Shown piece after piece: positions 2,989 through 62,279 of a DNA stretch of 64,000 nucleotides. How positions within the stretch are numbered: the first letter of the stretch is position 1; every line of letters starts with the position of its first letter. Under the pieces are notes generated by a model, which was not told the DNA's origin, ran no database searches, and was given only the letters and a program-made list of their open reading frames with translations. The stretch comes from Desulfuromonadales bacterium (GTDB lineage: Bacteria > Desulfobacterota > Desulfuromonadia > Desulfuromonadales > BM103). The DNA lies in NCBI GenBank assembly GCA_027065695.1, contig JAMONP010000044.1, forward strand, positions 1 through 64,000, in the 5' to 3' direction. The position numbers and the translations under genes are program-made.

Positions 2989-3069
2989 AAGATTCTCGCT
3001 CCAAGGTCTAATGTCTATCGAAAAGGTGTGGCGGTGTCAAGGCATAAAACAATGTTTCTTGAAAATCAA

Positions 3070-3084
3070 TTTCGCATTGCGGAA
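3070..3084. promoter_or_regulatory. Probable IclR operator 1
   Basis: TTTCGCATTGCGGAA is an imperfect 15 bp palindrome of the form TTYCGCNWTGCGRAA. It lies 82 bp upstream of the IclR start and is matched almost exactly by the site at 3280. IclR-family operators commonly have this symmetry. Binding by the adjacent IclR protein is inferred. Confidence 0.5.
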
Positions 3085-3279
3085 CTTGATTTTGCCGAGT
3101 TGCCGTGGTCAGTTGTTTTTAAATCGTTGTTTTCAAATGTTTATTAAGAAATATTATTGTTTGTTGATTCGTGATAACAGTATGTTGAGAGCTTCAAAAG
3201 AAACATTTCGTTTTTATTTGCAGAAAAATATTTACAAGGACAGGCTTGTCGGCTAAGATTCGTAAATAGCGGAATGTAG

Positions 3280-7507: not shown

Positions 7508-7514
7508 TTATTAA

Positions 7515-7591
7515 GGGCGCGGCAAGCAGCGTCCCCGCAAAACAAGATCCATTGGCATTGATTAACTGTAGGGGTGCCGCTTGCTGCGCCC
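7515..7591. repeat. Inverted pair of the GC-rich dispersed repeat
   Basis: The unit GGCGCGGCAAGCAGCGTCC (about 7516-7534) is followed 32 bp later by the opposite-strand copy, TGTAGGGGTGCCGCTTGC continuing into TGCGCCC (7567-7591). Together they can form a long hairpin between the SDR and second thiolase genes. It is the same family as at 2053-2115. Confidence 0.7.
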
Positions 7592-7625
7592 GATTTGACG
7601 ATGTATGATTATGCAAAGGACAAGC

Positions 7626-8771: not shown

Positions 8772-8806
8772 GAACTTTTGGAAACTAATTCACAGGAGAA
8801 AATACT

Positions 8807-43940: not shown

Positions 43941-45662
43941 ATGAAGCAACTGCTGCGCATCAACATGAAGACTCAAACGATAGTTAATGAAATCGTCGGT
44001 CAGGAATTTGCACATTTTGGCGGGCGAAGCTTGATCGCCAAAATTCTCAACCAGGAGATGGACGCTAAGGCCGATCCCCTGGGCCCAGAGAATAAACTCA
44101 TTGTTTGCCCAGGACTTTTCGTCGATACCGTGGCACCTTGCTCCGGGCGGATCTCAGTAGGTGGAAAAAGTCCTCTGACCAAGACAATTAAAGAGTCCAA
44201 TGCTGGTGGGACCATGGCTAAAAGGATGGCTGCATTGGATCTGCACGGCCTTGTCTTAGAGGACCAACCACAACAGGACGAGTGGTTTGTATTGGTGGTC
44301 GATGCCTCAGGAGTCGAGTTTCTGTCGGCCCAACCTTACCTCGGCATGAATAACTATCAACTTGGTGAAGAGTTGAGGAAGGAAATGGGCAGCGAAATTT
44401 CTATTGCCTCGGTTGGTCTGGCCGGAGAACGGCGTTATCTGAATGCTTCTATTCAATTTACCGATCTCGATGGACACCCTTCTCGGTCAGCTGCTCGGGG
44501 TGGACTAGGGGCCTTGATGGGCTCCAAAGGTGTGAAAGCGATTGTTTTTAAAGATGTAAAGAAAGCTGCTTGGGAGTATGCGGATAAGGATCGTTTTGCT
44601 GCTGCCAACAAAGCTTTTGGCAAAGCCCTGCTGGCACACCCCTTCTCAGGGCAAGGTTTGCCAGCTTTGGGAACCGCTCTACTGGTTAATGTGACTAATG
44701 AGATGGGTATTTTGCCGACACATAATTTCAGCAAGGGACGCTGGGAACACGCCGAGGAGACCAGTGGAGAACGGATTGCCGAATTGCAGGCCGAACGCGG
44801 TGGCAAGATGTCTCATATTTGTGAGCGCGGTTGTCTGGTGAGGTGCTCTCAGGTTTACAATGACAAGAACGGCAAATATTTAACCTCGGGGTTCGAGTAC
44901 GAAACCATCGGGTTATTTGGAGCAAATTGCGGGATTCGGGATATCGATGCCATCGCTCAGCTGGATAGACTCTGTGATGACCTGGGAGTTGACACCATGG
45001 ATACCGCCTGTGCTCTTAGCCTGTGTATGGAAGCAGGTCTGATCGAGTTTGGCGATGCCGAAGGTGCTTTGCGCCTTGGCCAGGAAATATTAGACGGAAC
45101 CGAACTGGGCAGGGTGCTTGGCAATGGCACAGAAGCCACCGGCCAGCATCTTGGATCCACGCGCATACCTACTGTCAAAGGACAGGCCATGGCAGCCTAT
45201 GATCCTCGGGGTCTTAAGGGGCTCGGAGTGACCTACGCGACAAGCCCTATGGGGGCTGATCATACGGCGGGCAACTCTATCGGCGACCATTCACTTGATG
45301 GAACCTGCAAGGACGGCCAGGTCGATCTTTCGAGGAACCTCCAGGTTATCATGACTGTCTTCGATACTTTGGGCATGTGTATTTTTTCTGGCATGTGTTG
45401 CGAGGAGCCAGAAGCCCTTGGGCATCTGATTGATATGGCGGCTGGCAAGTTTGGTGGTGATTGGGATGTTGATCGACTCATGGGCCTCGGAGTGCAGTCA
45501 CTGATTCTCGAGAAGCAGTTCAATAAGGCGGCTGGTTTTACCGAAAAAGATGACCGTCTGCCGGAGTTTATGTACACAGAGGTTCTGGAGTCGGTTGATG
45601 CCAGCTTTGATATCTCAGACGAGGAACTGGCAAAGACCCTTTCGTTTGGGGCGCCTGAATAA
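43941..45662 (+). CDS. aor: Tungsten aldehyde:ferredoxin oxidoreductase family protein
   Basis: This encodes 573 residues of the AOR family. The N-terminal segment FAHFGGRSLIAKIL and VCPGLFVDTVAPCSGR resemble the tungstopterin-binding domain. RSAARGGLGALMGSKGVKAIV is the family signature. The cluster cysteines lie in CERGCLVRC plus a later Cys. It would oxidise aldehydes to acids with ferredoxin as acceptor. Directly after the amine dehydrogenase operon (AAGGA start, 22 bp gap), it suits removal of the aldehyde product. The paralog BamB at 48699 shares the fold but is longer and has different neighbours. Confidence 0.9.
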   Translation: MKQLLRINMKTQTIVNEIVGQEFAHFGGRSLIAKILNQEMDAKADPLGPENKLIVCPGLFVDTVAPCSGRISVGGKSPLTKTIKESNAGGTMAKRMAALDLHGLVLEDQPQQDEWFVLVVDASGVEFLSAQPYLGMNNYQLGEELRKEMGSEISIASVGLAGERRYLNASIQFTDLDGHPSRSAARGGLGALMGSKGVKAIVFKDVKKAAWEYADKDRFAAANKAFGKALLAHPFSGQGLPALGTALLVNVTNEMGILPTHNFSKGRWEHAEETSGERIAELQAERGGKMSHICERGCLVRCSQVYNDKNGKYLTSGFEYETIGLFGANCGIRDIDAIAQLDRLCDDLGVDTMDTACALSLCMEAGLIEFGDAEGALRLGQEILDGTELGRVLGNGTEATGQHLGSTRIPTVKGQAMAAYDPRGLKGLGVTYATSPMGADHTAGNSIGDHSLDGTCKDGQVDLSRNLQVIMTVFDTLGMCIFSGMCCEEPEALGHLIDMAAGKFGGDWDVDRLMGLGVQSLILEKQFNKAAGFTEKDDRLPEFMYTEVLESVDASFDISDEELAKTLSFGAPE

Positions 45663-45694
45663 AAGCCATACCTCGGCAGAGGACACAACGCATT

Positions 45695-45919
45695 ATGATG
45701 ATTACCGTCAAGCTTTTTGCCAGCTTAAGGATCGGTCGATTCAAACAAGAACAAAGGGAATGCCCGGATGGCACGACATGCGGGCAGATCGTTGCCGATA
45801 TAGGAGTTCGAGGCGAAGAACTTGGTATGGTTCTCGTTAACGGGCACCACACTTCCCTGGAAAAAGCATTGCATGACGGGGACAGCCTCGCCATCTTCCC
45901 CTTGCTTGGTGGAGGTTGA
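45695..45919 (+). CDS. MoaD/ThiS-like sulfur-carrier protein
   Basis: This encodes 74 residues with the beta-grasp start MITVKLFASLR and a C-terminus LLGGG ending in diglycine, the site adenylated and thiocarboxylated in MoaD proteins. Such AOR-linked MoaD homologs serve pterin cofactor (tungstopterin) synthesis or sulfur insertion. It lies between AOR and a ThiF/MoeB-like activating enzyme and ends 1 bp before the GTG of the latter. Confidence 0.85.
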   Translation: MMITVKLFASLRIGRFKQEQRECPDGTTCGQIVADIGVRGEELGMVLVNGHHTSLEKALHDGDSLAIFPLLGGG

Positions 45920-45920
45920 G

Positions 45921-46739
45921 GTGGCGCAAATTCTTGATTTTTTGCGCAAAAAATCGCATGACGGTCTAATTGATTTGATAGCTCAGGAAGAAACCGCGCA
46001 AACCTTCGGGGTGAGTTTCTCCAGGGTCGAACGTATTGCACTGGAAAATGATCTTCTCCCCACGCGTTATCAAAGAAACTGTCAACTGATCTCATGTTGT
46101 CAGCAGTTGCAACTTTTCAGTAGTGTGGTTGCAGTTGTCGGTTGCGGGGGGCTGGGTGGTTATATTATCGAAGAACTGGCGCGGCTGGGCGTTGGACACC
46201 TCCTGGCTATTGATCCCGACATATTTGAGGAGAGTAACCTCAATCGTCAGATCCTTTCCAGCATCTCTACTATCGGCAGGGTCAAGGTGGTGGTGGCGGC
46301 AGAGCGGGTGGCACAGATCAATCCCGCAGTGACACTTAGCCCCATAGCAGAGGCTTTCGCACTGGATACCGGGAAGAGGTTGCTTGATGGGGCACACTTG
46401 GTAGTGGACGGTTTGGACAGCATTCCAACTCGCTTGGAATTGGCCGCAGTTTGTCGTGAGGCCGAAATCCCACTTATTCACGGTGCTGTCGCCGGTTGGT
46501 ATGGGCAGATCACCACCCAGTTTCCCGGCGATGGCACCTTGGAATCTCTCTACTCGGGGGAGGTCCGCAGTCGAGGAATCGAAAAGGAGCTTGGTAATCC
46601 TTCATTCACTCCGGCAGTGGTGGCCAGTTTAGAGGTGGCAGAAGTCTGTAAGGTTCTGCTTAACCAAGGCAAGCTGCTTCGAGGTCGACAGCTCTGTATT
46701 AACTTGCTTGATATGGAGATCGAAGAGATCCCATTTTAA
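45921..46739 (+). CDS. ThiF/MoeB/HesA-family adenylyltransferase (E1-like)
   Basis: This encodes about 272 residues from GTG 45921, chosen for GGAGG 5 bp upstream; the upstream open frame overlaps the MoaD gene and is not needed. After an N-terminal extension of about 60 residues comes the nucleotide fold VVAVVGCGGLGGYIIEELA and DPDIFEESNLNRQIL with the conserved Arg. The usual CxxC zinc pairs of MoeB are not seen. It likely activates the C-terminal Gly of the preceding MoaD-like protein for tungstopterin synthesis serving the adjacent AOR. Confidence 0.85.
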   Translation: MAQILDFLRKKSHDGLIDLIAQEETAQTFGVSFSRVERIALENDLLPTRYQRNCQLISCCQQLQLFSSVVAVVGCGGLGGYIIEELARLGVGHLLAIDPDIFEESNLNRQILSSISTIGRVKVVVAAERVAQINPAVTLSPIAEAFALDTGKRLLDGAHLVVDGLDSIPTRLELAAVCREAEIPLIHGAVAGWYGQITTQFPGDGTLESLYSGEVRSRGIEKELGNPSFTPAVVASLEVAEVCKVLLNQGKLLRGRQLCINLLDMEIEEIPF

Positions 46740-48698: not shown

Positions 48699-50675
48699 AT
48701 GAGGTACGCAGAGACAGGCTTCAATTTAGAGATCGATCTATCCCGGGGAAACATTGAGAAAGTTGCAACCGATCCACGAGACACCGAGCTTTATCTTGGC
48801 GGTTTGGGAACCAATACCAAGATCCTCTGGGACAGGGTTCCTCCTGAGACAAAACCTTTTTCTCCGGATAATCTTTTGATCTTCGGCACCGGTCTTTTAT
48901 GCGGTACACCGGCGACCGGTTGTAACCGTACCATTGTCTCCACTATTTCCCCTCAGTCCGAGTTGATGGCTTTTTCGATGATGGGGGGGTTCTGGGCGCC
49001 GGAGTTGAAGTATGCCGGTTATGACAAAGTGGTTCTTCGCGGCAAGTCGCCCGATCTGGTTTATTTGTGGATTAACAACGACAAGGTAGAGATACGTGAC
49101 GCCTCTCATTTACGAGGTAAGGGTGCAATTGAAACTGCAGAACTTATCAAGCAGGAGTTGAATGAGCCGAAAGCTCAGGTGGCTGCTATCGGCATGGCTG
49201 GTGAAAACCGGGTCTATTATGCGTCCATTGAGCAGGGCAGATCCAGTGCCAGTCGCGGTGGTATCGGTGCTGTTATGGGCGACAAAGGGGTAAAAGCGAT
49301 CGTTGTGCGCGGCACAAATGATATTAATGTTGCTCAGCCGGCTGAATACATGGAGCTTTGCAGCGAGGTGCTGGATTATATAAAAAAACGGGAAAGCAAT
49401 CCCATCCCTGGGGTCATGCCCATTTTAGCCGGACTAGGATCTCCGCAAGAGATGAAGGTCCATGATGAAAAATGGCATACTGAGAATTTCATGTGGGGGA
49501 ATTCCCGTGTCCGCAAAAGAGATTATTGGAATGAAGAAATAGAGAAAGATTGGACAGAGACGATGGAAAAGGCTCGCACCCGGCTGGTCAGTTGCTTTAA
49601 CTGTCCGATGGAATGCGGAGCCACGATTTCCATGCCAGGGCTGCCCACCTACATGATGAAATGCTTCACCAAGCTGACCTATACCATGGGTGCCTTTTCG
49701 GATCTGGATTTTGGTTTGAGAATTGCCCAAAAAGCCACAGAATATGGGGTAGATGGGTTTTCCGCCCCGCAGGTTATGGCCTTTGCTCTGGAGCTTCTGG
49801 AAAACGGTATTTTGACGGATAAGGATTTTCCTGACATGCCGGAAGACAGTGAAGGTCGGTTCTTCTATCTGCTTGACAAGATTGTCCGGCGGGAAGGGAT
49901 TGGCGATGTCCTGGCCAACGGCACACATTGGGCGGCCAAAGAGATTGGTAACGGCGCAGAAGCCTATGCGCATAATAATATCAAGAAAACCGAGCAGTTA
50001 CCTTTAAAACTCTCAATGCTGAATCCGGTTTATTTTCTTATGTATTCGACCGGTGAAAAAATTAACATCACACAGATCGAAGGGCAATTCCCTCAGGCGC
50101 CATTTGCGACCAAAGAGGAGCGAGAAGCATTTGTCTCGGATTGGATCCAGGTTCCTGATGAGAAGTTCAAGCAAATTTTGCTGGATTGGGAATTCCGTGG
50201 AGACAACTCAAACCCCTATTACCCAACCGTTGAAATGTCCTGCGATATCGTCGATTGGCAAGAGACGATGCACTATATCGATGATGCTCTAGGTCAGTGT
50301 GCCGGGTTGTCATCATTTCCTCTCAAGCCTCCATATCATATCCACAATTACCCCAAATTTATCTCAGCGGGGGCCGGGATCGACATGGACAAAGACAAGC
50401 TTACACAAGCGGCCAAGCGCTATCGGACTTTAGTAAGAGCCGTCAACATAAGTAGAGGCATGCGTCGTAAAGATGAGAAGCCGCCTGAGAATCATTGGAA
50501 GAAAAGGTTCCCAGAACTTGAAGAGCAGCTTTTAGATGGCTATTACAAATTCAAGGGCTGGAATAAAGATGGTATCCCGACGGAAGAGTCCTTACATGAA
50601 TTGGGTTTGGGTTATGTAAGTGATGCCTTTATCGAGCGAGGAATCTTGACCGAGGGTGAAGACGCTTCTGTCTAA
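48699..50675 (+). CDS. bamB: Class II benzoyl-CoA reductase active-site subunit BamB
   Basis: This encodes 658 residues of the AOR fold, the length expected for BamB. The family signature SSASRGGIGAVMGDKGVKAIV and the cluster ligands SCFNCPMEC plus a later Cys (MMKC) are present; the N-terminal part LGTNTKILWDRVP contacts tungstopterin in the family. BamB carries the W-bis-pterin site that reduces benzoyl-CoA to cyclohexa-1,5-diene-1-carbonyl-CoA without ATP hydrolysis. AAGGGG precedes ATG. The following genes encode all the other Bam subunits in Geobacter order, which makes the assignment firm. Confidence 0.93.
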   Translation: MRYAETGFNLEIDLSRGNIEKVATDPRDTELYLGGLGTNTKILWDRVPPETKPFSPDNLLIFGTGLLCGTPATGCNRTIVSTISPQSELMAFSMMGGFWAPELKYAGYDKVVLRGKSPDLVYLWINNDKVEIRDASHLRGKGAIETAELIKQELNEPKAQVAAIGMAGENRVYYASIEQGRSSASRGGIGAVMGDKGVKAIVVRGTNDINVAQPAEYMELCSEVLDYIKKRESNPIPGVMPILAGLGSPQEMKVHDEKWHTENFMWGNSRVRKRDYWNEEIEKDWTETMEKARTRLVSCFNCPMECGATISMPGLPTYMMKCFTKLTYTMGAFSDLDFGLRIAQKATEYGVDGFSAPQVMAFALELLENGILTDKDFPDMPEDSEGRFFYLLDKIVRREGIGDVLANGTHWAAKEIGNGAEAYAHNNIKKTEQLPLKLSMLNPVYFLMYSTGEKINITQIEGQFPQAPFATKEEREAFVSDWIQVPDEKFKQILLDWEFRGDNSNPYYPTVEMSCDIVDWQETMHYIDDALGQCAGLSSFPLKPPYHIHNYPKFISAGAGIDMDKDKLTQAAKRYRTLVRAVNISRGMRRKDEKPPENHWKKRFPELEEQLLDGYYKFKGWNKDGIPTEESLHELGLGYVSDAFIERGILTEGEDASV

Positions 50676-50745
50676 AAGGGCTTCGGTAGCGACTAAAAGA
50701 GGCTTCGGTAGCAACGTGAGGAAACTTAGACGGAGGATGTGAATC

Positions 50746-51282
50746 TTGAAGAAAACGAAAACTATAAAGACAATAAAAGTTGATATCAGTAAATGCAACG
50801 GTTGCCGGGCCTGCGAGGTTATCTGCTCCTCTTTTCACGCTACACCAAAGTATAGCAGTAATAATCCAGAGAGATCACGTATCCGGGTGACTCGTGAGCC
50901 TCTTCGAGATGTCTATGTTCCTGTCTACGCAGGTGAATATACGGTTGCCGAGTGTGCCGGCAGGGATAAATACATCATCGACGGCAAGGAATATGACGAG
51001 TGCGCTTTTTGTAGAGCGTCTTGCCCGTCCCGGGATCTGTTCAAAGAACCTGACTCCGGACTGCCACTCAAGTGTGATATGTGTGAAGGTGAAGATGAGC
51101 CCTTGTGTGTCAAGTGGTGCCACGCTGACGCTCTGATTTACGAAGAGCGGGAAGTGGCGGTGGACACGGCAGAAGAGCTGGAGGGGGAGGTTGAGGTTGG
51201 CCTGGAATCGTTAATCAACAGGCATGGCATTGAGAAGGTCGCTGACATCGTCGCGCAGATTTCCAAAGATTCAAAACGCTAA
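50746..51282 (+). CDS. bamC: Benzoyl-CoA reductase electron-transfer subunit BamC
   Basis: This encodes 178 residues starting at TTG 50746; GGAGG at 50732-50736 supports this start, since the nearby ATG is followed by a stop. It is a polyferredoxin with CNGCRACEVIC, CAFCRASC and CDMCEGEDEPLCVKWC, giving probably three [4Fe-4S] clusters. BamC forms the active BamBC unit. The 70 bp gap after bamB holds a short direct repeat GGCTTCGGTAGC. Confidence 0.9.
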   Translation: MKKTKTIKTIKVDISKCNGCRACEVICSSFHATPKYSSNNPERSRIRVTREPLRDVYVPVYAGEYTVAECAGRDKYIIDGKEYDECAFCRASCPSRDLFKEPDSGLPLKCDMCEGEDEPLCVKWCHADALIYEEREVAVDTAEELEGEVEVGLESLINRHGIEKVADIVAQISKDSKR

Positions 51283-51340
51283 GCTGAACCTGAACCTGTC
51301 TATTCACGGATTCAGGTAGAAATAAAGGATAGGTCATATC

Positions 51341-52492
51341 GTGGAAACTGTAGCCCCCGAAAAAGAAATAATCGAGGTCATCAAAGAGAACGGTGGTGAT
51401 TCGTTCAAGTATTGTTACCAATGCGGATTGTGTGATGCTGTTTGCCCGTGGAATCGGGTTCGGCAGTTCAGTATGCGCAAGCTGATTCGCCAGGCGACCT
51501 TCGGTTTGACTGAGATCGACCAGGAAGAGATGTGGCGTTGCACGACCTGTAAAACCTGCGTCGAGCGTTGTCCCAGGGGCGTGGACCAGATCGAAGCAGG
51601 GGTGTCCTTGCGTAAACTCGCCGCAGAATATGACGTTTTTCCGGGCCATGTTGCTCCCATCACCAACGTTGTGGCCAATCTGACCTCGGAAGGCAACTCT
51701 CTGGGCGGCGAAAGAGAAAAGCGGACAGAGTGGGCCAAGGGCCTGCCGGTCAAAGCCTTTACCGAGGAGATGGAAGTCTTATATTTCACCGGCTGTTATT
51801 TAAGCTATGACCCGAGAATGCGAGAGGTTGCCGCTGCCACGGCCAAGATTCTGAACAAGGCCGGTGTCGATTTCGGGGTTCTGGGTTCTAAGGAAAGCTG
51901 TTGTGGTGAAAGCATCCGCAAGACCGGGCACGAGGATTTATTCAAGCGCCTGGCCAAGGATAACATCAAGGCTTTTATCGACGCAGGGGTGAAGAAAGTG
52001 ATTGTTTCTTCCCCTCACTGTTACCATTCCTTCAAAAACGAATATCCCGAGTTCATGGTGAATTTCGAGGTGGTCTTTATCACCGAGTTTATTGCTGAAC
52101 TTATCAATGACGGTCGGCTGAAGCTTTCTGGGGAGTATGCCAGGAAAGTCACCTATCATGATCCCTGTTACCTGGGACGTCATAACGGCATCTACGATGC
52201 TCCCCGAGAGGTTCTGCAAAAAGTCCCCGGCCTGGAATTGAGTGAGATGGCCGATTCGCGGGAGAAAAGTCTCTGTTGTGGTGGCGGTGGCGGTCGCATC
52301 TGGATGGAGACGCCGAAGGAAGACAGGTTCGCTGATCTCAGGGTGAGGCAAGCAATTAATGTTGGCGCCGAAGTTCTGGTGACGTCCTGTCCATATTGCA
52401 TCACGAACTTTACCGATAGTTGCCTGGGCCTGGATGATAGCGAAGTCCTGGAAATTAAGGATATTACCGAAATCATCCAAGCTGTGCTTTAG
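51341..52492 (+). CDS. bamD: HdrBC-like subunit BamD
   Basis: This encodes 383 residues from GTG, with AAAGGA upstream. The N-terminal part has two [4Fe-4S] motifs (YQCGLCDAVCPWN and CTTCKTCVERCPRG), like HdrC. The C-terminal part has two CCG-type domains (CYLSYDPR with SCCGES, and CYLGRHNG with CCGGGGGR), like HdrB/HdrD. In the Bam complex it is proposed to link electron transfer between BamBC and the flavin-containing BamE. It overlaps bamE's GTG by one base. Confidence 0.9.
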   Translation: METVAPEKEIIEVIKENGGDSFKYCYQCGLCDAVCPWNRVRQFSMRKLIRQATFGLTEIDQEEMWRCTTCKTCVERCPRGVDQIEAGVSLRKLAAEYDVFPGHVAPITNVVANLTSEGNSLGGEREKRTEWAKGLPVKAFTEEMEVLYFTGCYLSYDPRMREVAAATAKILNKAGVDFGVLGSKESCCGESIRKTGHEDLFKRLAKDNIKAFIDAGVKKVIVSSPHCYHSFKNEYPEFMVNFEVVFITEFIAELINDGRLKLSGEYARKVTYHDPCYLGRHNGIYDAPREVLQKVPGLELSEMADSREKSLCCGGGGGRIWMETPKEDRFADLRVRQAINVGAEVLVTSCPYCITNFTDSCLGLDDSEVLEIKDITEIIQAVL

Positions 52493-52509
52493 TGAAAAAG
52501 GACGAGTTG

Positions 52510-55500
52510 ATGGCAAGCAATCCAGTCGAAATAGAAATTGATACTTCCGTAGACAACAATATTGGCGATGTTCTAGTTGTTGGTGGCGGAATAAGTGGTA
52601 TTCAGGGCGCCCTCGATCTTGCTAATTCCGGTTTTCGGGTTTTCCTGGTCGATAAGTCGCCCGCGTTAGGCGGCAAGATGTCTCAGCTGGACAAGACTTT
52701 TCCCAGCAATGACTGTTCCATGTGTATCGAGTCGCCCAAGTTTATCGAATGTACGCGGCATCCCAATATCGAGATTATGACCTATACCGAAGTCGATCGC
52801 ATCGAAGGCGAAGCGGGCGATTTCACGGTGACGCTGATTAAAAAGCCTCGCTACGTGATTGAGGAGAAATGCACCGGCTGTAACATCTGTGTGGACTATT
52901 GCCCGGTGAAAATCCCCGACCCATTTAATCAGAATCTCTCAGAGAGCAAGGCTGTTCACATTCACTTTTCTCAAGCGGTTCCGCTGGTCACTTATGTGGA
53001 TCCTGAAACCTGCTTGTACCTCAAAGAGGAAAAATGCTCGATTTGCGTCGGTGTTTGCAAGACCAATGCGATTGATCTCCATCAGAAGCCAGAAACGGTT
53101 GAAGTGGAGGTTGGAGCGATCCTGCTCTCTCCAGGCTTTGAAACCTTTGATCCGAAACTTCGCAATGACTTTGGTTACGGTATCATGGAGAACGTCGTCA
53201 CCAGCCTCGATTTCGAACGTATCCTGTGTTCCACAGGTCCCTACGAAGGTGAGGTAAGGCGTCCATCCGACAATCAGCATCCTAAAAAGATCGCCTGGAT
53301 CCAGTGCGTTGGTTCACGACAGGTTATTCCCGGCGGCAACAGCTACTGTTCGGCGGTTTGCTGCACCTATACCCAAAAACAAGTGATTCTGGCCAAAGAC
53401 CATGATGCTGATCTCGACGCGACAATTTTCCATAACGATATCCGCGCCTACGGCAAGGATTTTGAGCGTTTTTACCAGCGTGCGGAAAAATTGTCAGACG
53501 TCAGTTTTATAAGAAGTTATGTGACCGTCGGCAAAGAGATCGAAGAGAGTAAGAACGTCACCATTAGATACTCTACTCTTGAGGATGGTGTCAAAGAAGA
53601 GGAATTCGACATGGTTGTGCTCTCGGTCGGTTTGAATCCGCCCAAAGATGTTGAGGGTTTGGCCAAAACCTTCGCTATTGAACTCAACGAGCACGGTTTC
53701 TGTAAAACTGACCCGAGAAGTCCGATCAAAACCACCCGCGAGGGGGTTTTTGTCAGTGGCACCTTCCAGGGGCCGATGGATATCCCCGAATCAGTGGTGA
53801 CCGCCAGTGGTGCCGAGGCTCTTTGCGGTGAGCTGCTCAATTATCGACGCGATAAGTTGAGCCGGGAAAGAGTCTATCCGCCGGAGCGGGACGTTTCTGA
53901 AGAAGAACTCAAGATCGGGGTTGTCGTTTGTCACTGTGGTGCCAATATTGGTCGAGTGGTTGATATTCCTGCCTTGGTTGAATACTCCTCCACCCTGGAG
54001 GGTGTGTCCTGGGCCGGTGAGAATCTGTTTGCCTGTTCCACGGAAAACGCCCAGCAGATTGCCGATGCGATCAAGGCAAAAGGACTTAACCGCGTGGTGT
54101 TGGCAGCCTGTACCCCAAGAACCCATGAGCCGCTGTTTCGAGATACCTGCCGTGAGGCGGGCATTAATCAGTATTTTTTCGAAATGGCAAATATCCGCGA
54201 ACATTGTTCCTGGGTTCACTCCAAAGATAAGGAAGCCGCCACCCAGAAGGCCAAAGATATTGTTCGCATGGCTGTAGCCCGCGCTGCTCATTTAGAGCCG
54301 TTGCAGGAATTTGAGCTACCGGTTAACAAGGCGGCGTTAGTGGTCGGTGGAGGTTTGGCCGGTATGACCAGTGCTTTGAGCATGGCTGAGCAGGGTTTTG
54401 AAGTCTCCCTGGTCGAAAAGAATGCAGACCTTGGCGGTATGTCCAGGAGAATCAGTTACACCCTGGAAGGGATGGATGTTCAACAACATTTGAGCTCTCT
54501 CGTCCGCAAGATTTATCAGCATCCTTTGATCCATGTCTCACATAATGCCACCATCACAGATGTCTCCGGTTATATAGGAAATTTCGTTACGACCGTCAGT
54601 TCTGAAGGACAGGTCAAAGAGATTCCTCACGGCATCGCTATCCTTGCGACCGGCGCACAGGAACATAAACCCAGCGAATACCTGTATGGTCAGGACGATC
54701 GGGTGATCACCCAGCTTGAGCTGGAAGGCGAGATCGCCAACGGCAACGAGAAAGTGACTGGCACCCAAAGCCTGGTGATGATTCAGTGTGTCGGTTGTCG
54801 TCAGGAGGACAAGAACTACTGTAGTCGCGTCTGTTGCGGCCAGGCCGTCAAAAATGCCCTGAAGCTCAAAGAGCTTAATGCCGAAATGGATATCCATATC
54901 CTCTTCCGGGACATGCGCTCCTATGGCTTCAAAGAAGACTATTACCGCGAGGCGGCAGAGCGGGATATCAAGTTTATCCGCTTTGATCCGGCGAACAAGC
55001 CTGAGGTCACAACCGGTAAGGAAGAGGGTCGTGACGTTCTGAAAATCACACTCCCCGATCTGGTTCTTGGCCAGAAACTCGAATTGTCTGCCGATCTGCT
55101 GACCTTGTCTGCCGCGGTTGATCCGGCCGAAAGTGCTAAAGATATTGCTGGCTTATTCAAGGTTTCGTTTAATCCGGACGGATTCTTTCAGGAAGCACAT
55201 GTTAAATTGCGACCGGTCGACTTTGCCGCGGATGGCGTTTTTCTCTGTGGTAGTGCCCAATATCCCAAACATATAAGCGAAACCATCAGCCAGGCTTACG
55301 GTGCTGCGGGTCGTGCCATCTCCATTCTTGCGGGAGATTCGGTTACCGCCTCCGGGGCCGTGTGTGATGTTGATGAGAATAACTGCATCGCCTGTGGAGC
55401 TTGTATTACCGCCTGTACTTATGACGCCATATCGTTTGTTGATACACCGCAGGGCAAAAAAGCCAGGGTTGAATCGATTCTCTGTAAAGGTGATGGCCTT

Positions 55501-55599
55501 TGTAACGCAAAGTGTCCGACCCAGGCGATTTTCCTGAAACATTATACCGATGATGAGATATTCGCCCAGATTGACCAGGCGATTCCGGCCAGTAAATAG
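52510..55599 (+). CDS. bamE: HdrA-like flavoprotein BamE
   Basis: This encodes about 1029 residues from ATG 52510 (AAGGACGA upstream; a GTG at 52492 would add six). It contains two HdrA-like halves: FAD-binding VVGGGISGIQGALDLA and later VVGGGLAGMTSALSMAEQG, each followed by HdrA-type cysteines (DCSMCIESPKFIEC, WIQCVGSRQ, MIQCVGCRQ). Ferredoxin motifs occur at CTGCNICVDYC and at the C-terminus (CIACGACITAC and CKGDGLCNAKC). In Hdr systems this is the flavin-based electron bifurcation centre; the same role is proposed for BamE. A dispersed repeat follows before bamF. Confidence 0.92.
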   Translation: MASNPVEIEIDTSVDNNIGDVLVVGGGISGIQGALDLANSGFRVFLVDKSPALGGKMSQLDKTFPSNDCSMCIESPKFIECTRHPNIEIMTYTEVDRIEGEAGDFTVTLIKKPRYVIEEKCTGCNICVDYCPVKIPDPFNQNLSESKAVHIHFSQAVPLVTYVDPETCLYLKEEKCSICVGVCKTNAIDLHQKPETVEVEVGAILLSPGFETFDPKLRNDFGYGIMENVVTSLDFERILCSTGPYEGEVRRPSDNQHPKKIAWIQCVGSRQVIPGGNSYCSAVCCTYTQKQVILAKDHDADLDATIFHNDIRAYGKDFERFYQRAEKLSDVSFIRSYVTVGKEIEESKNVTIRYSTLEDGVKEEEFDMVVLSVGLNPPKDVEGLAKTFAIELNEHGFCKTDPRSPIKTTREGVFVSGTFQGPMDIPESVVTASGAEALCGELLNYRRDKLSRERVYPPERDVSEEELKIGVVVCHCGANIGRVVDIPALVEYSSTLEGVSWAGENLFACSTENAQQIADAIKAKGLNRVVLAACTPRTHEPLFRDTCREAGINQYFFEMANIREHCSWVHSKDKEAATQKAKDIVRMAVARAAHLEPLQEFELPVNKAALVVGGGLAGMTSALSMAEQGFEVSLVEKNADLGGMSRRISYTLEGMDVQQHLSSLVRKIYQHPLIHVSHNATITDVSGYIGNFVTTVSSEGQVKEIPHGIAILATGAQEHKPSEYLYGQDDRVITQLELEGEIANGNEKVTGTQSLVMIQCVGCRQEDKNYCSRVCCGQAVKNALKLKELNAEMDIHILFRDMRSYGFKEDYYREAAERDIKFIRFDPANKPEVTTGKEEGRDVLKITLPDLVLGQKLELSADLLTLSAAVDPAESAKDIAGLFKVSFNPDGFFQEAHVKLRPVDFAADGVFLCGSAQYPKHISETISQAYGAAGRAISILAGDSVTASGAVCDVDENNCIACGACITACTYDAISFVDTPQGKKARVESILCKGDGLCNAKCPTQAIFLKHYTDDEIFAQIDQAIPASK

Positions 55600-55617
55600 G
55601 CCGCAAATAAACGGTTC

Positions 55618-55776
55618 TATAACCCAAAAAAGATTTAACGCAGAGGCGCTAAGAGCGCAGAGGAAAAGTTCTTAAATCTCAGGAAAACGTCTCAATCACA
55701 GTCATTACTTTCTGCGTCTCCGCGTCTTTGCGTTAGTTAATTGCTTAAGTATTATTTTGCTTTTGTTTGGGTTATA
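55618..55776. repeat. Palindromic dispersed repeat inside the bam operon
   Basis: Outer arms TATAACCCAAA (55618-55628) and its exact complement (55766-55776) enclose imperfect arms containing TTAACGCAGAGGCGC and TCTGCGTCTCCGCGTCTTTG. The CGCAGAGGCGC / GCGTCTCCGCG type of element is a familiar dispersed repeat in deltaproteobacterial genomes. It lies wholly between bamE and bamF. Confidence 0.75.
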
Positions 55777-55835
55777 AGTTCGTAAATAAAACAGGGGTTA
55801 CCCTGAACAGAGGTTACTTTGGAGAGGAGATAAGC

Positions 55836-56606
55836 ATGTCTACGGGATTTGATGAGTTTAAGCCCAACGTCATCGGTTTTTTGTGCACCTGGTGAGCGTA
55901 CGCGGCTGCGGACCTGTCTGGAGTTTCCAGACTACAATACACAAGTGAAACCAAGATTATCCGGGTTATGTGCTCTGGCCGAGTTGACTTATCGTTTGTC
56001 CTGCGTGCTTTTACGAATGGCGCGGACGGGGTCTATATCGGCGGTTGTTGGCCGGGCGAATGCCATTATGTGACCGAAGGCAATTATGACACCTTGTTCA
56101 ATATGCATCTCGGGCGGAAGCTTTTGGAACATGTTGGACTGAATCCCTTAAGGTTAAGGCTCGAATGGACGGCTTCCTCTGAGGGAACGCGTTATGCTGA
56201 AGTAATGAACGACTTTGGCAAGCAGTTAAAAAGTTTCGGCCCTCTCGGTGCTGGCGAAGGCCTTGATGAGAGCACTTTGAAACTCAAGCTGGAAGCGGTC
56301 ACAAAACTGATCCCATATATCAAGCTGGTAGAACGGGAGCGGTTGCGTATGCGTTTTGACAAGTCTGAGAAGTATGATGAGTATTTCGCCAGTGACGAGT
56401 TTGCCCGACTCTTTGATGAGTTAGTGGTGGATAAACTGGCCGTTAGCGAAATCATGCTTCTGCTTCAGGGACAACCTCTTCCCGCCAAGGAAATCGCCCA
56501 GGGGCTCGGACTCACCCCGGCGGCTGTTTCAAGATATCTCAACAGCTCATCGGAGCGTGGCTTGGTCCGGTATGACGAGGAACTGAAACGCTACGCGCTG
56601 GCCTGA
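55836..56606 (+). CDS. bamF: Selenocysteine-containing MvhD-like subunit BamF (UGA readthrough)
   Basis: This encodes 256 residues when the in-frame TGA at 55893-55895 is read as selenocysteine 20. The start is ATG 55836 with GGAGAGGAG upstream. The segment GFLCTWUAYAAADL reproduces the MvhD motif CxxWC with Sec for the last Cys; MCSGRVD and GGCWPGECHY supply the other cluster ligands. A hairpin suited to a bacterial SECIS lies about 20 nt after the UGA. BamF of Geobacter metallireducens is a known selenoprotein. After the MvhD domain (about 140 residues) comes a C-terminal region with a winged-helix-like end (AKEIAQGLGLTPAAVSRYLN). It would pass electrons to BamE. Confidence 0.92.
55916..55932 (+). 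promoter_or_regulatory. Candidate SECIS hairpin of bamF
   Basis: GTCTGG and CCAGAC form a perfect 6 bp stem with loop AGTTT, beginning 21 nt after the UGA codon at 55893. Bacterial SECIS elements lie just after the UGA and carry a G-U in the apical loop, as here. Confidence 0.65.
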
Positions 56607-56671
56607 GAGGTTGTGGGTTTTGAGCAAGAACTTATTTTGATTTAGTTTGCAGAGCGACAAGGAAGACAACC

Positions 56672-57124
56672 ATGGATAGCGGGAAAATTGATCAGATCAT
56701 TAACAAACACAATGCCGATGCCGGTTCGTTGATCCAGATATTATTGGAGATCCAGAACGAAAACAATTGGTTGCCCAAGGAGGCTCTCACCAGGGTCAGT
56801 GAAACTCTGGCTGTCCCCATGAGCCGTATCCGACATATCACCACTTTTTACAAAACTTTCAGTCTGGTTCCCCGTGGTCGTCATGAGGTTCATGTGTGTA
56901 CCGGCACGGCCTGTCATGTTCGTGGTGCGGAGAGGGTCCTTGAGGCGGTTGAGGGCGTGACCGGAGTCAATGCTGGCGAGACGGACCCGGATTTGAACTT
57001 CAGTGTTGAGACGGTCGGCTGCATCGGTTGCTGTGCATTGGGACCGGTGGTGGTGGTCGATGGCGAATATCATGGCAATATATTACCCGCCGAGATAACA
57101 AAAGTCTTGCAAGACAAAAAGTAA
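56672..57124 (+). CDS. bamG: NuoE-like [2Fe-2S] subunit BamG
   Basis: This encodes 150 residues of the thioredoxin-like [2Fe-2S] family. Ligands are CTGTACHVRG (Cys-x4-Cys) and GCIGCCALGP. The N-terminal helical region (SLIQILLEIQNENNWLPKEAL) is typical of NuoE/HoxE. With BamH and BamI it forms a module that connects NAD(H) to the complex. It precedes bamH by 10 bp. Confidence 0.92.
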   Translation: MDSGKIDQIINKHNADAGSLIQILLEIQNENNWLPKEALTRVSETLAVPMSRIRHITTFYKTFSLVPRGRHEVHVCTGTACHVRGAERVLEAVEGVTGVNAGETDPDLNFSVETVGCIGCCALGPVVVVDGEYHGNILPAEITKVLQDKK

Positions 57125-57134
57125 GGATAAGTTT

Positions 57135-59045
57135 ATGCCAAGGATAAATTCCTGTGCCGAACTGGAAGAGTTAAGACAAGAAATCCTCTCCCAACGGGAT
57201 CCAAATAAACCCTGTATTGCCATCTGCACCGGGTCCGGTTGTATCGCACTCGGTGCGGCTGATGTGGTCACTGCCTTTAAAGATGAAATTAAAGAGCAGG
57301 GGCTGGACATTAAGATCGATATCAGGGAAACCGGTTGTCCGGGTTTCTGTGAAAGAGGACCTTTGTTGGTTATCTATCCGGAAGAGACCTGTTATCTGCG
57401 GGTGAAGCCGGAGGATGTAAAAGAGATTATCACTGAAACCGTGCTTGGCAAAAAAGTGATCGACCGATTGCTTTATATCGATCCCGAGACCGATGAGAAG
57501 GCTGTTAAGGAATCTGAGATACCCTTTTACAAGAATCAGATGCGCCTCTTGATCGGTGATAATATCAAGATCGATCCAAATAGTATTGAGGACTATCTCG
57601 CTATTGGTGGTTACTCTGCTTTGGCCAAAGCCCTTTTTGAAGAAGGGCCTGAGAAAATCATAGCGTCGGTCAAAGAGTCCGGTCTGAGAGGCCGCGGTGG
57701 CGGCGGATTCCCGGCCGGTCTTAAGTGGGAATTTACCCGTAAGACTTCGGCGGAAACCAAGTATGTGATTGTCAACGCCGACGAGGGTGACCCCGGGGCT
57801 TTTATGGACAGGGCACTGCTCGAAGGTAACCCCCACGCAGTTCTTGAAGGGCTCCTCATCGGGGCTTATGCCATTGGCGCACGGGAGGGCTATTTTTATG
57901 TGCGCGAGGAATACCCTCTGGCCGTAGAGAATGTGACAAAAGCTCTCAAGCAGGCGGAAGAGTATGGTTTTTTAGGTAAAAACATTCTTGGTTCAGACTT
58001 TAATTTCACGGTTCAAATACATCAAGGTGCCGGTGCTTTTGTTTGTGGTGAGGAAACCGCACTGATCATGTCTCTTGAAGGCCATGTCGGTGAACCAAAA
58101 CCGCGGCCACCTTTTCCAGCAGTTAAAGGCCTTTGGGGCAAGCCGACAAATATAAATAACGTGGAAACCTGGGCCAATATCCCCTTAATTATCAATCAGG
58201 GCGCGGACGCCTTTGCCTCGGTTGGTACGGAAGGTAGTAAGGGCACCAAGATCTTTGCCCTGGTTGGCAAGGTCAAAAATACCGGTCTTGTAGAAGTCCC
58301 CATGGGGATTACTTTGCGGGATATTGTCTATAAAATAGGTGGTGGACTGCCCGGAGGTAAAAAGTTCAAGGCTGTTCAGACCGGAGGACCCGCAGGTGGC
58401 TGCATGCCTGAGAGCTTGCTGGATATGGAAGTCGATTTTGATCAACTCACCAAGGCTGGCTCAATGATGGGCTCAGGTGGTATGATTGTTCTCGATGAAG
58501 ATACCTGTATGGTTGATTTTGCCAGGTATTTTCTCAACTTCCTGGCTGATGAATCCTGTGGCAAATGTGTTCCCTGTCGCGAAGGTGTTAAACAAATGCT
58601 CAACATTCTGACGAATATAACTTTAGGCAAGGGCAAACCGGGTGATCTCGAGCTCTTGGAAGAACTGGCCGAGGTTGCCGGAAGTTCTGCCCTTTGTACC
58701 TTAGGTAAAGGTGCTCCCAACCCGGCCTTAAGTACGTTGAGTCATTTCAGGGATGAGTACGAGGCGCACATCAACGAGGGAAGGTGTGCGGCGCTCTCCT
58801 GCAAAGAGTTGATCGCGTTCTATATCGATCCGGCGAAATGCAAGGCTTGCGGAGCCTGTATTAAAGACTGTGCTCCAGAAGCAATCACAGGTGGCAAAAA
58901 GGTGATTCATGTCATCGACCAGGAGAAATGCACCAAGTGCGGATCCTGCCTTGAAGCTTGCCCCGCAGCCTTTGGTGCGGTGAGTAAGATGTCTGGTGAG
59001 CCTGTTCCTGCGGCACTCCCCGAAGAATCAAGAAATCTAGGATGA
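57135..59045 (+). CDS. bamH: NuoF-like NADH/FMN subunit BamH
   Basis: This encodes 636 residues. An N-terminal [2Fe-2S] thioredoxin-like domain (TGSGCIALGA, TGCPGFCERGP) is followed by the NADH/FMN-binding region (LRGRGGGGFPAGLKWEF, NADEGDPGAFMDR), the [4Fe-4S] motif SCGKCVPCREG and a C-terminal ferredoxin pair (CKACGACIKDCAPEAI and CTKCGSCLEACP). It is the probable NADH-linked entry or exit site of the Bam complex. AAGGATAAG precedes ATG. Confidence 0.93.
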   Translation: MPRINSCAELEELRQEILSQRDPNKPCIAICTGSGCIALGAADVVTAFKDEIKEQGLDIKIDIRETGCPGFCERGPLLVIYPEETCYLRVKPEDVKEIITETVLGKKVIDRLLYIDPETDEKAVKESEIPFYKNQMRLLIGDNIKIDPNSIEDYLAIGGYSALAKALFEEGPEKIIASVKESGLRGRGGGGFPAGLKWEFTRKTSAETKYVIVNADEGDPGAFMDRALLEGNPHAVLEGLLIGAYAIGAREGYFYVREEYPLAVENVTKALKQAEEYGFLGKNILGSDFNFTVQIHQGAGAFVCGEETALIMSLEGHVGEPKPRPPFPAVKGLWGKPTNINNVETWANIPLIINQGADAFASVGTEGSKGTKIFALVGKVKNTGLVEVPMGITLRDIVYKIGGGLPGGKKFKAVQTGGPAGGCMPESLLDMEVDFDQLTKAGSMMGSGGMIVLDEDTCMVDFARYFLNFLADESCGKCVPCREGVKQMLNILTNITLGKGKPGDLELLEELAEVAGSSALCTLGKGAPNPALSTLSHFRDEYEAHINEGRCAALSCKELIAFYIDPAKCKACGACIKDCAPEAITGGKKVIHVIDQEKCTKCGSCLEACPAAFGAVSKMSGEPVPAALPEESRNLG

Positions 59046-59070
59046 TAACCAGGATGAGGAAGTAAATAAC

Positions 59071-59691
59071 ATGAGCGAAATCCTCTTGCAGATTGATGGA
59101 AAAGAAGTTGCCGCCGAGGAAGGAACGACCATTCTTGTGGCCGCACAAAGCGTGGGAGTTTCTATCCCGACTCTTTGTCTCCATGAGAAACTGGAGCCTT
59201 ATGGCGGGTGCCGGGTTTGCTCCGTAGAAGTGGAATCACGCGGCAGATCGAGTGTTGTTGCCGCCTGTCTTTATCCTGTTGAGAAAGATCTGGTGGTCAC
59301 AACCAGAACCGAGAAACTGGATAGAATCCGCAAATCGCTATTGGAAATGATGCTGGCTCATGCTCCGGATTCTGAGCCGCTGCTGGAATTGGCCGAAGAG
59401 TATGGAGCCGATAAGGATCGCTTTGAAAAAGAAGCTTCATTTTGCATTCATTGCGGACTCTGTGTAAGATACTGTACAGAGGTAAAAAAGGCGAACGCTC
59501 TCGGATTTATCAACAGGGGGGCGAAAAAAGAGATCAGCTTCATTCCTGAGATCGCCTCAAAAGAGTGCTGGGACTGCAAGGAATGTTTCGAACTCTGCCC
59601 GACTTCAGCGTTACAGGCAGCGTTTGTTTTAATTGAGGCTCTGACGGCTCCTCCGCAACCAACCACAAAAAGCTGTCACAGCTGCGGATAA
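59071..59691 (+). CDS. bamI: NuoG-like Fe-S subunit BamI
   Basis: This encodes 206 residues resembling the N-terminus of NuoG/HoxU. The [2Fe-2S] ligands are in CLHEKLEPYGGCRVC with a further Cys in VVAACLYP. The [4Fe-4S] motifs are CIHCGLCVRYC and CWDCKECFELCP. The molybdopterin-like domain of full NuoG is absent, as expected for BamI. The C-terminus ends in a CHSCG tail. It is the last recognised subunit of the operon. Confidence 0.9.
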   Translation: MSEILLQIDGKEVAAEEGTTILVAAQSVGVSIPTLCLHEKLEPYGGCRVCSVEVESRGRSSVVAACLYPVEKDLVVTTRTEKLDRIRKSLLEMMLAHAPDSEPLLELAEEYGADKDRFEKEASFCIHCGLCVRYCTEVKKANALGFINRGAKKEISFIPEIASKECWDCKECFELCPTSALQAAFVLIEALTAPPQPTTKSCHSCG

Positions 59692-59721
59692 ACGATATCC
59701 GGGGCCAGAAAATGGCGACTG

Positions 59722-60507
59722 ATGGAAGCACCATCCACACGAAAAATCATCCGCGTCGTGCAGGGGCAAAGCGAACAGGCGGAGCGCAGAGTTGTTGAAG
59801 AATATCCGCTGCGTTTGAGAGTCAACGAACGTGAGTTGGCGACCCTGGTTTGTTCACCGCACCAGCTCAATTTTCTACTGGTCGGTTTTTTCCGCTTGCA
59901 GGGATTCATTGACAGCCTTGACGATATCCTCTCTATGGGGGTTTGTAGCGAATATGGCTTGGCTGAACTTCGTCTTCGCACTGAATTGCCGGAACGACTG
60001 CAACCAACTCTGACTTCCGGTTGTGGTACCGGAATCTCCTACAACCTGCCGCAAAATTTACTCAATCCCGCTCAGCAACGTCCTCGCAGTTACCGCAGCG
60101 AAGAACTGTTTCGCTTGATGAAAGAGCTGAACAATTTGACGGAACAGTATCGTAGCCACGGCGGCATCCATTCTGCGGCTATCGGTGATGCTGACGGTTT
60201 GCTGCTCCATGCCGAGGATATCGGTCGCCACAACACCCTCGATCGGCTTGCCGGTGAAGCTCTGTTCAAAGGCATAGACGCGCAAGATAAGATGCTGGTC
60301 ACCTCCGGGAGGATCTCTTCTGAGATGGTTGCCAAGGCGGCACGGCTCGGTGTCGGCCTGATGGCTTCGCGCACCTCGCCAACCGATAGGGCCATCGAAC
60401 TCTGCGAGCAGGCCGGGATTACCATGGTTGGTTACCTGCGTGGCAACAGCATGGAAATTTATAGCCATCCGCAACAGCTTGCTTGTCCTCCCCTGAAAGG
60501 TCTTTAG
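59722..60507 (+). CDS. fdhD: FdhD-type sulfurtransferase / Mo-W cofactor accessory protein
   Basis: This encodes 261 residues. Family motifs are TSGCGTGISYN, GGIHSAAIGDADG, HAEDIGRHNTLDRLAG and VTSGRISSEMVAKAA. FdhD transfers sulfur to the pterin cofactor of formate dehydrogenases. The active loop here has CGTG in place of the common CGxCG, keeping only one cysteine. The location after bamI, with no formate dehydrogenase in view, suggests it could sulfurate the tungsten cofactor of BamB; this is inference. The ribosome site upstream of ATG is weak. Confidence 0.87.
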   Translation: MEAPSTRKIIRVVQGQSEQAERRVVEEYPLRLRVNERELATLVCSPHQLNFLLVGFFRLQGFIDSLDDILSMGVCSEYGLAELRLRTELPERLQPTLTSGCGTGISYNLPQNLLNPAQQRPRSYRSEELFRLMKELNNLTEQYRSHGGIHSAAIGDADGLLLHAEDIGRHNTLDRLAGEALFKGIDAQDKMLVTSGRISSEMVAKAARLGVGLMASRTSPTDRAIELCEQAGITMVGYLRGNSMEIYSHPQQLACPPLKGL

Positions 60508-60512
60508 ATCGT

Positions 60513-62279
60513 ATGACAAACGAGGGACTGGTTAAAGGTGGAGAGTTCCTACTGCGCGAAGCTGTGGGGAGAACTCAGTTTACGCCAGAGGATTTCACCT
60601 CGGAACAGCGACAGATAGCTGAGACTACGGAAGCTTTTGTTGACAACGAGATTTTTCCTGATCTGGAACAAATGGAAGAACAGGATTTCCCTCTGCTCAT
60701 TGAGAAACTGCGTAGTTGTGCCAAGCTAGGCCTGTTTCTGGTTGATATCCCGGAGAAGTTTGGTGGCCTGGAGTTGGATAAGTCGACCAGCATGCTGGTT
60801 GCGGAAAAGCTTGGGCCAACGGGTTCTTTTGCTATCACTTCCAGTGGCCAGACTGGTATTGGCTCACTTCCTCTGGTCTATTACGGCACTGCGCAGCAGA
60901 AGCAAAAGTACCTGGAAAAGCTTACCAGTGGTGAATGGATCGCCTCCTACTGTTTGACTGAGCCCGACTGCGGCAGCGATCCCTTGAGTTCCAGAACCAC
61001 CGCGACCCTTACCGAAGACGGTTCCAGCTATCTCCTCAATGGCGTCAAACAGTTCATCACTAACGCGGCTTTTGCTGACCTGTTCACCGTCTTTGCCAAA
61101 ATCGATGGCCAGCATTTTTCAGCGTTTCTGGTCGAACGGAGTATGGCCGGACTTTCGATTGGCAACGAAGAAAAGAAAATGGGACTCAAGGGGACCTCAA
61201 CCGCCCAGGTGGTCTTGGCAAATGTCCGTGTGCCGGTTGAAAACCTGCTTGGTGAAGTTGGTAAAGGCCATAAGATTGCTTTCAATGTTCTCAATATTGG
61301 TCGTCTGAAGCTCGCTGCTACTGTGACCGGAGCGGCTAAGGCCGCCTTTGCTGAGGCTGTAAACTACGCTGTCGAGCGTAAACAGTTCGGGCAGACTCTG
61401 GCAAGCTTCGGTGCCATTCGCGAGAAGCTTGCCGACATGCTCGGCGATCTGTTTGCTGCTGAATCGCTTCTTTACCGGACCTCCGGGCTGCTCGATGAGC
61501 GGATCGAGACCCTTGATCGGGATGACGATAATTATTACGAACATTATCAGAAAGCAATCGAAGAATATGCTGGTGAGTGTGCTATTGCTAAGGTCTTTTG
61601 TAGTAACACCTTAGCCCATGTGGCTGATGAAGCGTTGCAGATACACGGCGGTTACGGCTACATCAGAGACTACCCGGTCGAACGCATCTACCGGGACGAG
61701 CGGGTCAATCGAATCTTCGAAGGGACTAACGAGATCAACCGGCTGCTGATTCCGGGCTTGTTGTTGCGTCGAGCCGACAGTGGCGCTCTGGACCTCTGGA
61801 GTCTGGTCAAGGCTGTGCAGGGGAAATTTCAATCAGGCGATATCAAAGATGTTGGTGATAATACTTTATTCGGGACTGAACTCTCACAGCTGGCTACGCA
61901 GAAAAAACTTTTTCTACTGCTGCTGGGTGCCTTGGGTGAGAACCGCAGCGAACAAGAAATCCTGCTTGCTCTGGGAGACATGATTATCAGCCTCTTTGCT
62001 CTAGAAAGCAGTATACTGCGTACCTCTAAAATATTTTCCACTGTCAGTGAACGACAAAAAAGATTGTTGCAGGCGGTGGTCAAGGTCACGACGTTTACAG
62101 GTGTTGACCGTTTCCAGTCTGCCGCCATGCGCTGTGCCACTTACGGAGTTCATGGGGCGAATCTGGTTGCCCTGCAGAAAACCATTACCAGCCTTTGTGC
62201 TTACCCCGCAATCGGGTTGCTGAAGGCTAAGCAGCAGCTGGCTGAGGCCGCAGCTGAATCAGGGTCCTACCCGTTCTGA
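60513..62279 (+). CDS. Acyl-CoA dehydrogenase (long form)
   Basis: This encodes about 588 residues from ATG 60513; an in-frame TTG at 60483 overlaps fdhD and is less likely. The flavin and substrate motifs CLTEPDCGSDPLSS, NGVKQFITNAAFAD and the C-terminal IHGGYGYIRDYPVERIYRD and IFEGTNEINR are intact. The extra about 190 C-terminal residues place it with the VLCAD-like long acyl-CoA dehydrogenases. It may dehydrogenate an arylpropionyl- or dicarboxyl-CoA. The next gene encodes an aromatic acid-CoA ligase, which supports an aromatic side-chain substrate. Confidence 0.87.
   Translation: MTNEGLVKGGEFLLREAVGRTQFTPEDFTSEQRQIAETTEAFVDNEIFPDLEQMEEQDFPLLIEKLRSCAKLGLFLVDIPEKFGGLELDKSTSMLVAEKLGPTGSFAITSSGQTGIGSLPLVYYGTAQQKQKYLEKLTSGEWIASYCLTEPDCGSDPLSSRTTATLTEDGSSYLLNGVKQFITNAAFADLFTVFAKIDGQHFSAFLVERSMAGLSIGNEEKKMGLKGTSTAQVVLANVRVPVENLLGEVGKGHKIAFNVLNIGRLKLAATVTGAAKAAFAEAVNYAVERKQFGQTLASFGAIREKLADMLGDLFAAESLLYRTSGLLDERIETLDRDDDNYYEHYQKAIEEYAGECAIAKVFCSNTLAHVADEALQIHGGYGYIRDYPVERIYRDERVNRIFEGTNEINRLLIPGLLLRRADSGALDLWSLVKAVQGKFQSGDIKDVGDNTLFGTELSQLATQKKLFLLLLGALGENRSEQEILLALGDMIISLFALESSILRTSKIFSTVSERQKRLLQAVVKVTTFTGVDRFQSAAMRCATYGVHGANLVALQKTITSLCAYPAIGLLKAKQQLAEAAAESGSYPF

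Follow-up and report, generated by a model that had tools for sequence, protein, structure and literature searches.

An in-frame UGA, probably read as selenocysteine, in the MvhD-like bamF gene of a Desulfuromonadales benzoyl-CoA reductase cluster

The benzoyl-CoA reductase complex of Geobacter metallireducens contains selenocysteine (Sec), and Geobacter BamF is among the known selenoproteins. The title of a 2011 paper names W/Se-containing class II benzoyl-CoA reductases. With selenium in this benzene-ring-reducing enzyme class already known, the bamF gene described here confirms what is known. No statement of BamF as a Geobacter selenoprotein was found in the literature passages searched. 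The passage available on G. metallireducens BamBCDEFGHI gives bamB to bamF as Gmet_2087 to Gmet_2083, a gene order common to the present locus, and annotates bamF as 'hydrogenase, delta subunit; HTH mo', which matches the two-domain make-up found here (PMC1924859). No difference in kind is seen between the present bamF and that of G. metallireducens; the sequence is new, and the G. metallireducens gene lies outside the 43 loci compared below.

The FrhD/MvhD/VhuD proteins are listed as a selenoprotein family with the motif CxxU in a passage of one survey (PMC13188914) and without a motif in a passage of another (PMC9312934); the word BamF is absent from both texts. The MvhD/VhuD/FrhD selenoproteins (PF02662) have both the domain and the Sec position in common with the present BamF, which carries in addition a C-terminal region of ∼120 residues with a helix-turn-helix match, whereas the solved MvhD chains matched are 129–141 residues long. 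According to the same passage of the first survey, Sec-containing hydrogenase subunits occur in sulfate reducers and methanogens only (PMC13188914), while many of the 42 UGA loci found here are labelled Geobacter or Geobacteraceae. In the benzoate degrader Desulfococcus multivorans, the excerpt available describes a UGA in mvhD and in bamE (PMC5109826). The bam enzyme cluster of that species likewise contains a UGA, but in BamE; unlike D. multivorans, the present cluster has its UGA in BamF and none in BamE. A putative HdrA-MvhD fusion would explain this difference. A 2026 paper, in the portion available, predicts that BamF of Geotalea daltonii binds selenite and reports bamF1 transcripts raised 11-fold with 2.5x selenite and 19-fold with molybdenum, and bamF2 transcripts not raised by selenite (PMC13119186).

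The window, that is, the whole stretch of 64,000 nucleotides analysed, carries a cluster whose gene order and domains correspond to bamB to bamI, the names of the last three subunits being approximate. Another aromatic acyl-CoA is possible as the substrate of the encoded complex. The genes are as follows.

48699..50675, forward strand: bamB-like gene of the aldehyde:ferredoxin oxidoreductase family (PF02730/PF01314), named by order and domain
50746..51282, forward strand: bamC-like ferredoxin subunit, named by order (weak Fer4-type matches, all under their cut-offs)
51341..52492, forward strand: bamD-like gene with CCG and ferredoxin domains (PF02754, 3.8e-40)
52492..55599, forward strand: bamE-like HdrA homologue without an in-frame UGA (NF040770, 947 bits, under the cut-off of 1100)
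55836..56606, forward strand: bamF, read through one UGA, with a FlpD/MvhD domain and a C-terminal helix-turn-helix-like domain (PF02662, PF09339, PF01022)
56672..57124, forward strand: NuoE-like 2Fe-2S thioredoxin-fold subunit of the bamG to bamI group (PF01257, 5e-48)
57135..59045, forward strand: NuoF-like (bamH-like) subunit (PF01512, 1.4e-46)
59071..59691, forward strand: HoxU/NuoG-N-like subunit of the bamG to bamI group (PF13510, 1.8e-18)

Within and around bamF, three further features matter to the argument.

55893..55895, forward strand: UGA at codon 20, probable Sec codon in the motif CTWU (TGA in orthologues, Cys at the aligned position in MvhD and paralogues)
55916..55932, forward strand: bacterial SECIS-like hairpin with a 7-bp stem (55916–55922 paired with 55926–55932) and a GUU loop; core CUGGA-GUU-UCCAG at 55918–55930
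55968..56606, forward strand: open reading frame called under table 11, 212 residues, lacking 44 residues of bamF

The most probable reading, to which a probability of about 0.92 is assigned, is that bamF encodes an MvhD-like electron-transfer subunit of an ATP-independent (class II) benzoyl-CoA reductase in which UGA at codon 20 is decoded as Sec by way of the hairpin. SelB and Sec-tRNA would bind the hairpin 20 nt downstream and insert Sec at codon 20, where it would replace the second Cys of the MvhD-domain motif CxWC. By homology with the MvhD-HdrA pair, this domain would pass electrons to or from the HdrA-like BamE, and Sec may have a role in that transfer. A sequence-only reading of the locus had proposed that UGA encodes Sec in this MvhD protein of BamF type, and comparative tests support it through the TGA codon, the Cys paralogues and the synonymous sites of the hairpin. 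The strong evidence lies in these comparisons (TGA in 42 of 43 loci, invariant synonymous sites and dN/dS) rather than in the fold of the single sequence.

The frame comprises 256 codons, with codon 20 as its single in-frame TGA and a stop at 56604–56606. This bears out the frame of the sequence-only reading, which ran from 55836 through one TGA at 55893 to 56606, as well as the strong start it placed at 55836; a purine-rich ggagaggag lies a few bases upstream of that ATG. As it also foresaw, an annotation that stops at UGA forfeits the first 44 residues including the motif, for table 11 yields 55968–56606 alone. Under that table, the loss of the N-terminal residues and the redox motif would make the subunit seem defective. 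Its placing of the UGA at a Cys of the MvhD motif also stands, with the spelling CxxWC corrected to C-x-W-U (CxxU; CTWU).

When the TGA is treated as a residue, the match to PF02662 (FlpD, methyl-viologen-reducing hydrogenase delta subunit) spans residues 12–135 (1.7e-44, 151.2 bits against a cut-off of 22.3) and hence begins upstream of it. In three alignments with solved MvhD proteins, the Sec codon falls on the second Cys of CNWC. In MvhD, the motif that corresponds to that around codon 20 forms part of the iron-sulphur site. A structure predicted from nine orthologues, in which Cys stood for Sec, has a mean pLDDT of 74 and falls under 50 at residues 27–36. It gives four structure matches below an E value of 0.001, all of them MvhD chains, the best PDB entries by fold being 5odh_D and 5odc_D; the model places the residue of codon 20 in the opening turn of its first helix. 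The C-terminal region is kept in all nine aligned orthologues. In the window protein, which alone was scanned here, it has PF09339 (5.3e-07) and PF01022 (6.3e-06) matches within residues 204–248, so that this electron-transfer subunit has a helix-turn-helix match (56445–56582) towards its C terminus.

Conservation of the UGA was followed in two overlapping sets, several contigs being common to both as judged by their length and identity. A search of 40 genomes, including that of the window, gave matches in 14. All nine long bamF orthologues have exactly one internal TGA. The six short FlpD matches, found in five of the genomes, have no internal TGA; these Cys paralogues (one match partial) carry TGC or TGT at the Sec position in every case. 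Genome contigs were also scanned for two peptide patterns, VIGFLCTW and QY[ST][TS]ETKI, which flank and exclude both the Sec codon and the hairpin and favour close relatives; this recovered 43 loci. TGA occupies the Sec codon in 42, including two from Geotalea toluenoxydans with further stops downstream in the frame read; the one other locus has TGC and is a distant Chloroflexi FlpD of 48% identity (L108). Close homologues lacking both UGA and Cys, which would have spoken against the sequence-only reading, number none among the 43. The loci with UGA are labelled Geobacter, Geobacteraceae, Desulfuromonadales, Deltaproteobacteria and, once, Latescibacterota. The last (L104, on a contig labelled Candidatus Latescibacterota) has both the UGA and an identical hairpin core, and represents a transfer or a misbinned contig. 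No relatives were found among viral contigs, and plasmids gave one distant match, from Ilyobacter. These comparisons establish the frame, the conserved UGA, its equivalence to Cys, the conserved hairpin sequence and the gene cluster. UGA and a common hairpin core go together in 42 of the 43 loci found, whereas the short paralogues have Cys. This suggests that the electron-transfer site favours selenium, an idea that bears on the energetics of benzene-ring reduction and can be put to the test.

A bacterial SECIS is a hairpin just downstream of the UGA with a short loop in which G comes first. The bamF hairpin begins 20 nt after the UGA and has a GUU loop and invariant synonymous sites. The perfect stem claimed by the sequence-only reading is thus present, with 7 bp at 20 nt in place of the 6 bp at 21 nt it gave. 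The stem is more than a chance occurrence: across the ten genes from 48699 to 62279, perfect stems of at least 7 bp at comparable spacing follow 19 of 3951 codon positions. The core, CTGGAGTTTCCAG, is identical in 45 of 46 sequences, the exception being the Chloroflexi FlpD. Codon entropies were calculated for 43 sequences (the window, 40 loci, and L038 and L040; the two G. toluenoxydans loci and the Chloroflexi one were left out). Codons 29–31 (GGA-GTT-TCC) do not vary across the 43, and no other column comes as low in entropy among the 75 amino-acid-conserved four- and six-fold codon columns, for which the median is 1.57 bits. The six Cys paralogue matches read GCG GGG AC(C/G) AGC at the hairpin site, unlike bamF. 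Only the inner five pairs are common to relatives; the sixth is non-standard in 6 of 13 aligned sequences and, in a wider set, in 27 of 45 (26 G-A and one G-G), being otherwise U-A or U-G. No compensatory changes occur in the stem among the aligned relatives, and covariation lends no support to the pairing because the core never varies. The single-sequence fold of the region is unremarkable (z −1.22, with 25 of 200 shuffles folding equally well or better), and the window has no Rfam match at gathering thresholds. Nucleotide-level constraint appears to act at the site required for a bacterial SECIS, and the hairpin is the candidate for that element.

Selective constraint on the protein extends to both sides of the TGA. 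Whole-gene dN/dS, computable for five of the six relatives tried (not L087), is 0.073 (L066), 0.075 (L067), 0.125 (L069), 0.121 (L070) and 0.079 (L078); these are rough values, dS being 1 or more throughout. Against L067, L069, L070 and L078, the ratio is 0.035–0.10 for codons 2–19 and 0.08–0.12 for codons 21–256; codons 2–19 show zero synonymous change against L066 and hence give no ratio. In those four relatives, codons 2–19 are constrained at least as strongly as the rest.

The machinery for Sec was also sought in the genome of the window (G000), whose assembly totals 3.39 Mb over 108 contigs and has a completeness rating of 99.95%. The sequence-only reading had named the presence of selA, selB, selC and selD as a check, which is borne out for selC, accompanied by yedF, and not for the other three genes. 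A genome devoid of Sec machinery, which would have spoken against that reading, is seen in part; the shortfall is taken as an assembly gap rather than a refutation. The tRNA-Sec gene (selC) scores 71.7 bits against a cut-off of 47 and is called SeC with anticodon tca by ARAGORN. It lies directly downstream of yedF, whose product is above its own cut-off, and both genes seem intact. Among 14 control genomes, 5 likewise exceed the cut-off of the Rfam tRNA-Sec model, against 1 to 2 for the selA, selB and selD models; the match is therefore weak by itself, and weight falls on the ARAGORN result and on the adjoining yedF. In model searches of the contigs, selA, selB and selD are absent from the assembly. 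There is no selA match whatever; the best selB match is EF-Tu, a fragment resembling selB at the opposite end of the selC contig (C1) is likewise the start of an EF-Tu gene, and the two best selD matches look ThiL- and HypE-like by eye.

The absence of these genes raises the most serious alternative, under which all three are truly gone from the species, perhaps through an insertion or deletion beside selC. The UGA would then end translation, leaving a truncated BamF or one begun anew at 55968. The high completeness rating speaks for such a loss, as does the want of another UGA gene in the three families searched in this genome. Here bamF is the sole FlpD match, and TGA occurs in none of three peroxiredoxin-family and none of six formate-dehydrogenase-alpha matches, two of the latter being pieces of one frame and one being above its cut-off. 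The proportion of peroxiredoxin-family matches with TGA is 5/10 in G001, 3/8 in G002, 2/7 in G003, 4/9 in G006 and 4/8 in G012, and 0/3 in G010, a genome that has selA. A codon-usage scan for more UGA genes covered 0.92 Mb, made up of the window and stretches of G000, and yielded 95 candidates; as bamF is not among the 45 listed, the scan speaks neither for nor against.

The surroundings of selC bear on the same question. In G010, yedF and selC are followed in turn by an integrase-like gene, several others, the gene at 2381–3127, one more gene, an AhpD-like gene and selA; the gene at 2381–3127 lies ∼0.85 kb from selA. On contig C1 of G000, yedF and selC are followed by the counterpart of that gene, and homology to G010 ends 140 bases before the contig end. 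The frame of the gene that follows selC there is broken by a TAA (L121, 2215–3028); this, with the end of homology, may mark a mobile element or deletion junction, and the arrangement also suits a loss. An insertion element at the contig end is unproven; the end sequence matches itself alone within its own genome and nothing among plasmids. In G010 (contig C255, L117), selC seems to be the target of an integrated element (7044–9598): its neighbour looks integrase-like by eye, and ∼35 bases from the 3' end of the tRNA recur as a near-copy ∼2.4 kb away. Directly upstream of selA on the same contig lies a small frame that is AhpD-like by eye (1565–1837, reverse strand) and contains an in-frame TGA (CQPU).

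Against a loss stand the seemingly intact selC and yedF, the constraint on both sides of the UGA and the unchanged hairpin. Moreover, selA is present in 38 of the 40 genomes, the two without it being G000 and a genome that is 59% complete. In six same-genus relatives examined, selA, selB and selD adjoin each other (models confirmed on one), and the G000 contig ends near the place where they would be expected. At 3.39 Mb, G000 is also smaller than five same-genus genomes of at least 97% completeness (3.8 to 4.0 Mb). The missing genes are therefore likely an assembly gap, with real loss as the alternative, because selA is so widespread and the selC contig breaks near the position expected from one relative; the evidence fits a gap and is short of proof. 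The DNA of the selABD contig of G003 has three matches in G000, each confined to the initial 938 bases of that contig, where the frame looks etfA-like by eye, and genes near selA in G010 have no match in the G000 stretches searched, which cover part of the genome. The selD genes of the six same-genus relatives (L050–L055) each have an in-frame TGA near the start (TSGU).

A loss is thus improbable, though it keeps a small share. It would mean that selC, yedF, the UGA-containing bamF and its hairpin have outlasted selA, selB and selD, in a lineage midway through losing Sec or with UGA decoded by another route, a combination that seems equally improbable. If Sec has indeed been lost, the benzoyl-CoA reductase cluster would be about to be re-coded or silenced. 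The Sec reading of bamF is preferred, and under it selA, selB and selD would be present in the organism outside the assembled contigs.

The two other explanations carry almost no weight. A TGA that replaces a Cys codon through sequencing error, or that disables the gene as a pseudogene, has in its favour the single base that separates TGA from a Cys codon, but TGA recurs in nearly all of the loci and in many assemblies; its conservation rules out sequencing error as the source, and the explanation as a whole is exceedingly improbable. Translation from the ATG that exists at 55968, with the upstream part untranslated, deserves as little credence, since conservation at the protein level spans the UGA including the CTWU motif and codons 2–19 are no less constrained than the rest against four relatives.

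Two other genes in the window may be recorded. A second aldehyde:ferredoxin oxidoreductase gene lies at 43941–46739, adjoining a ThiF-family gene, and a quinohemoprotein amine dehydrogenase alpha-subunit-like gene lies at 35266–36828.
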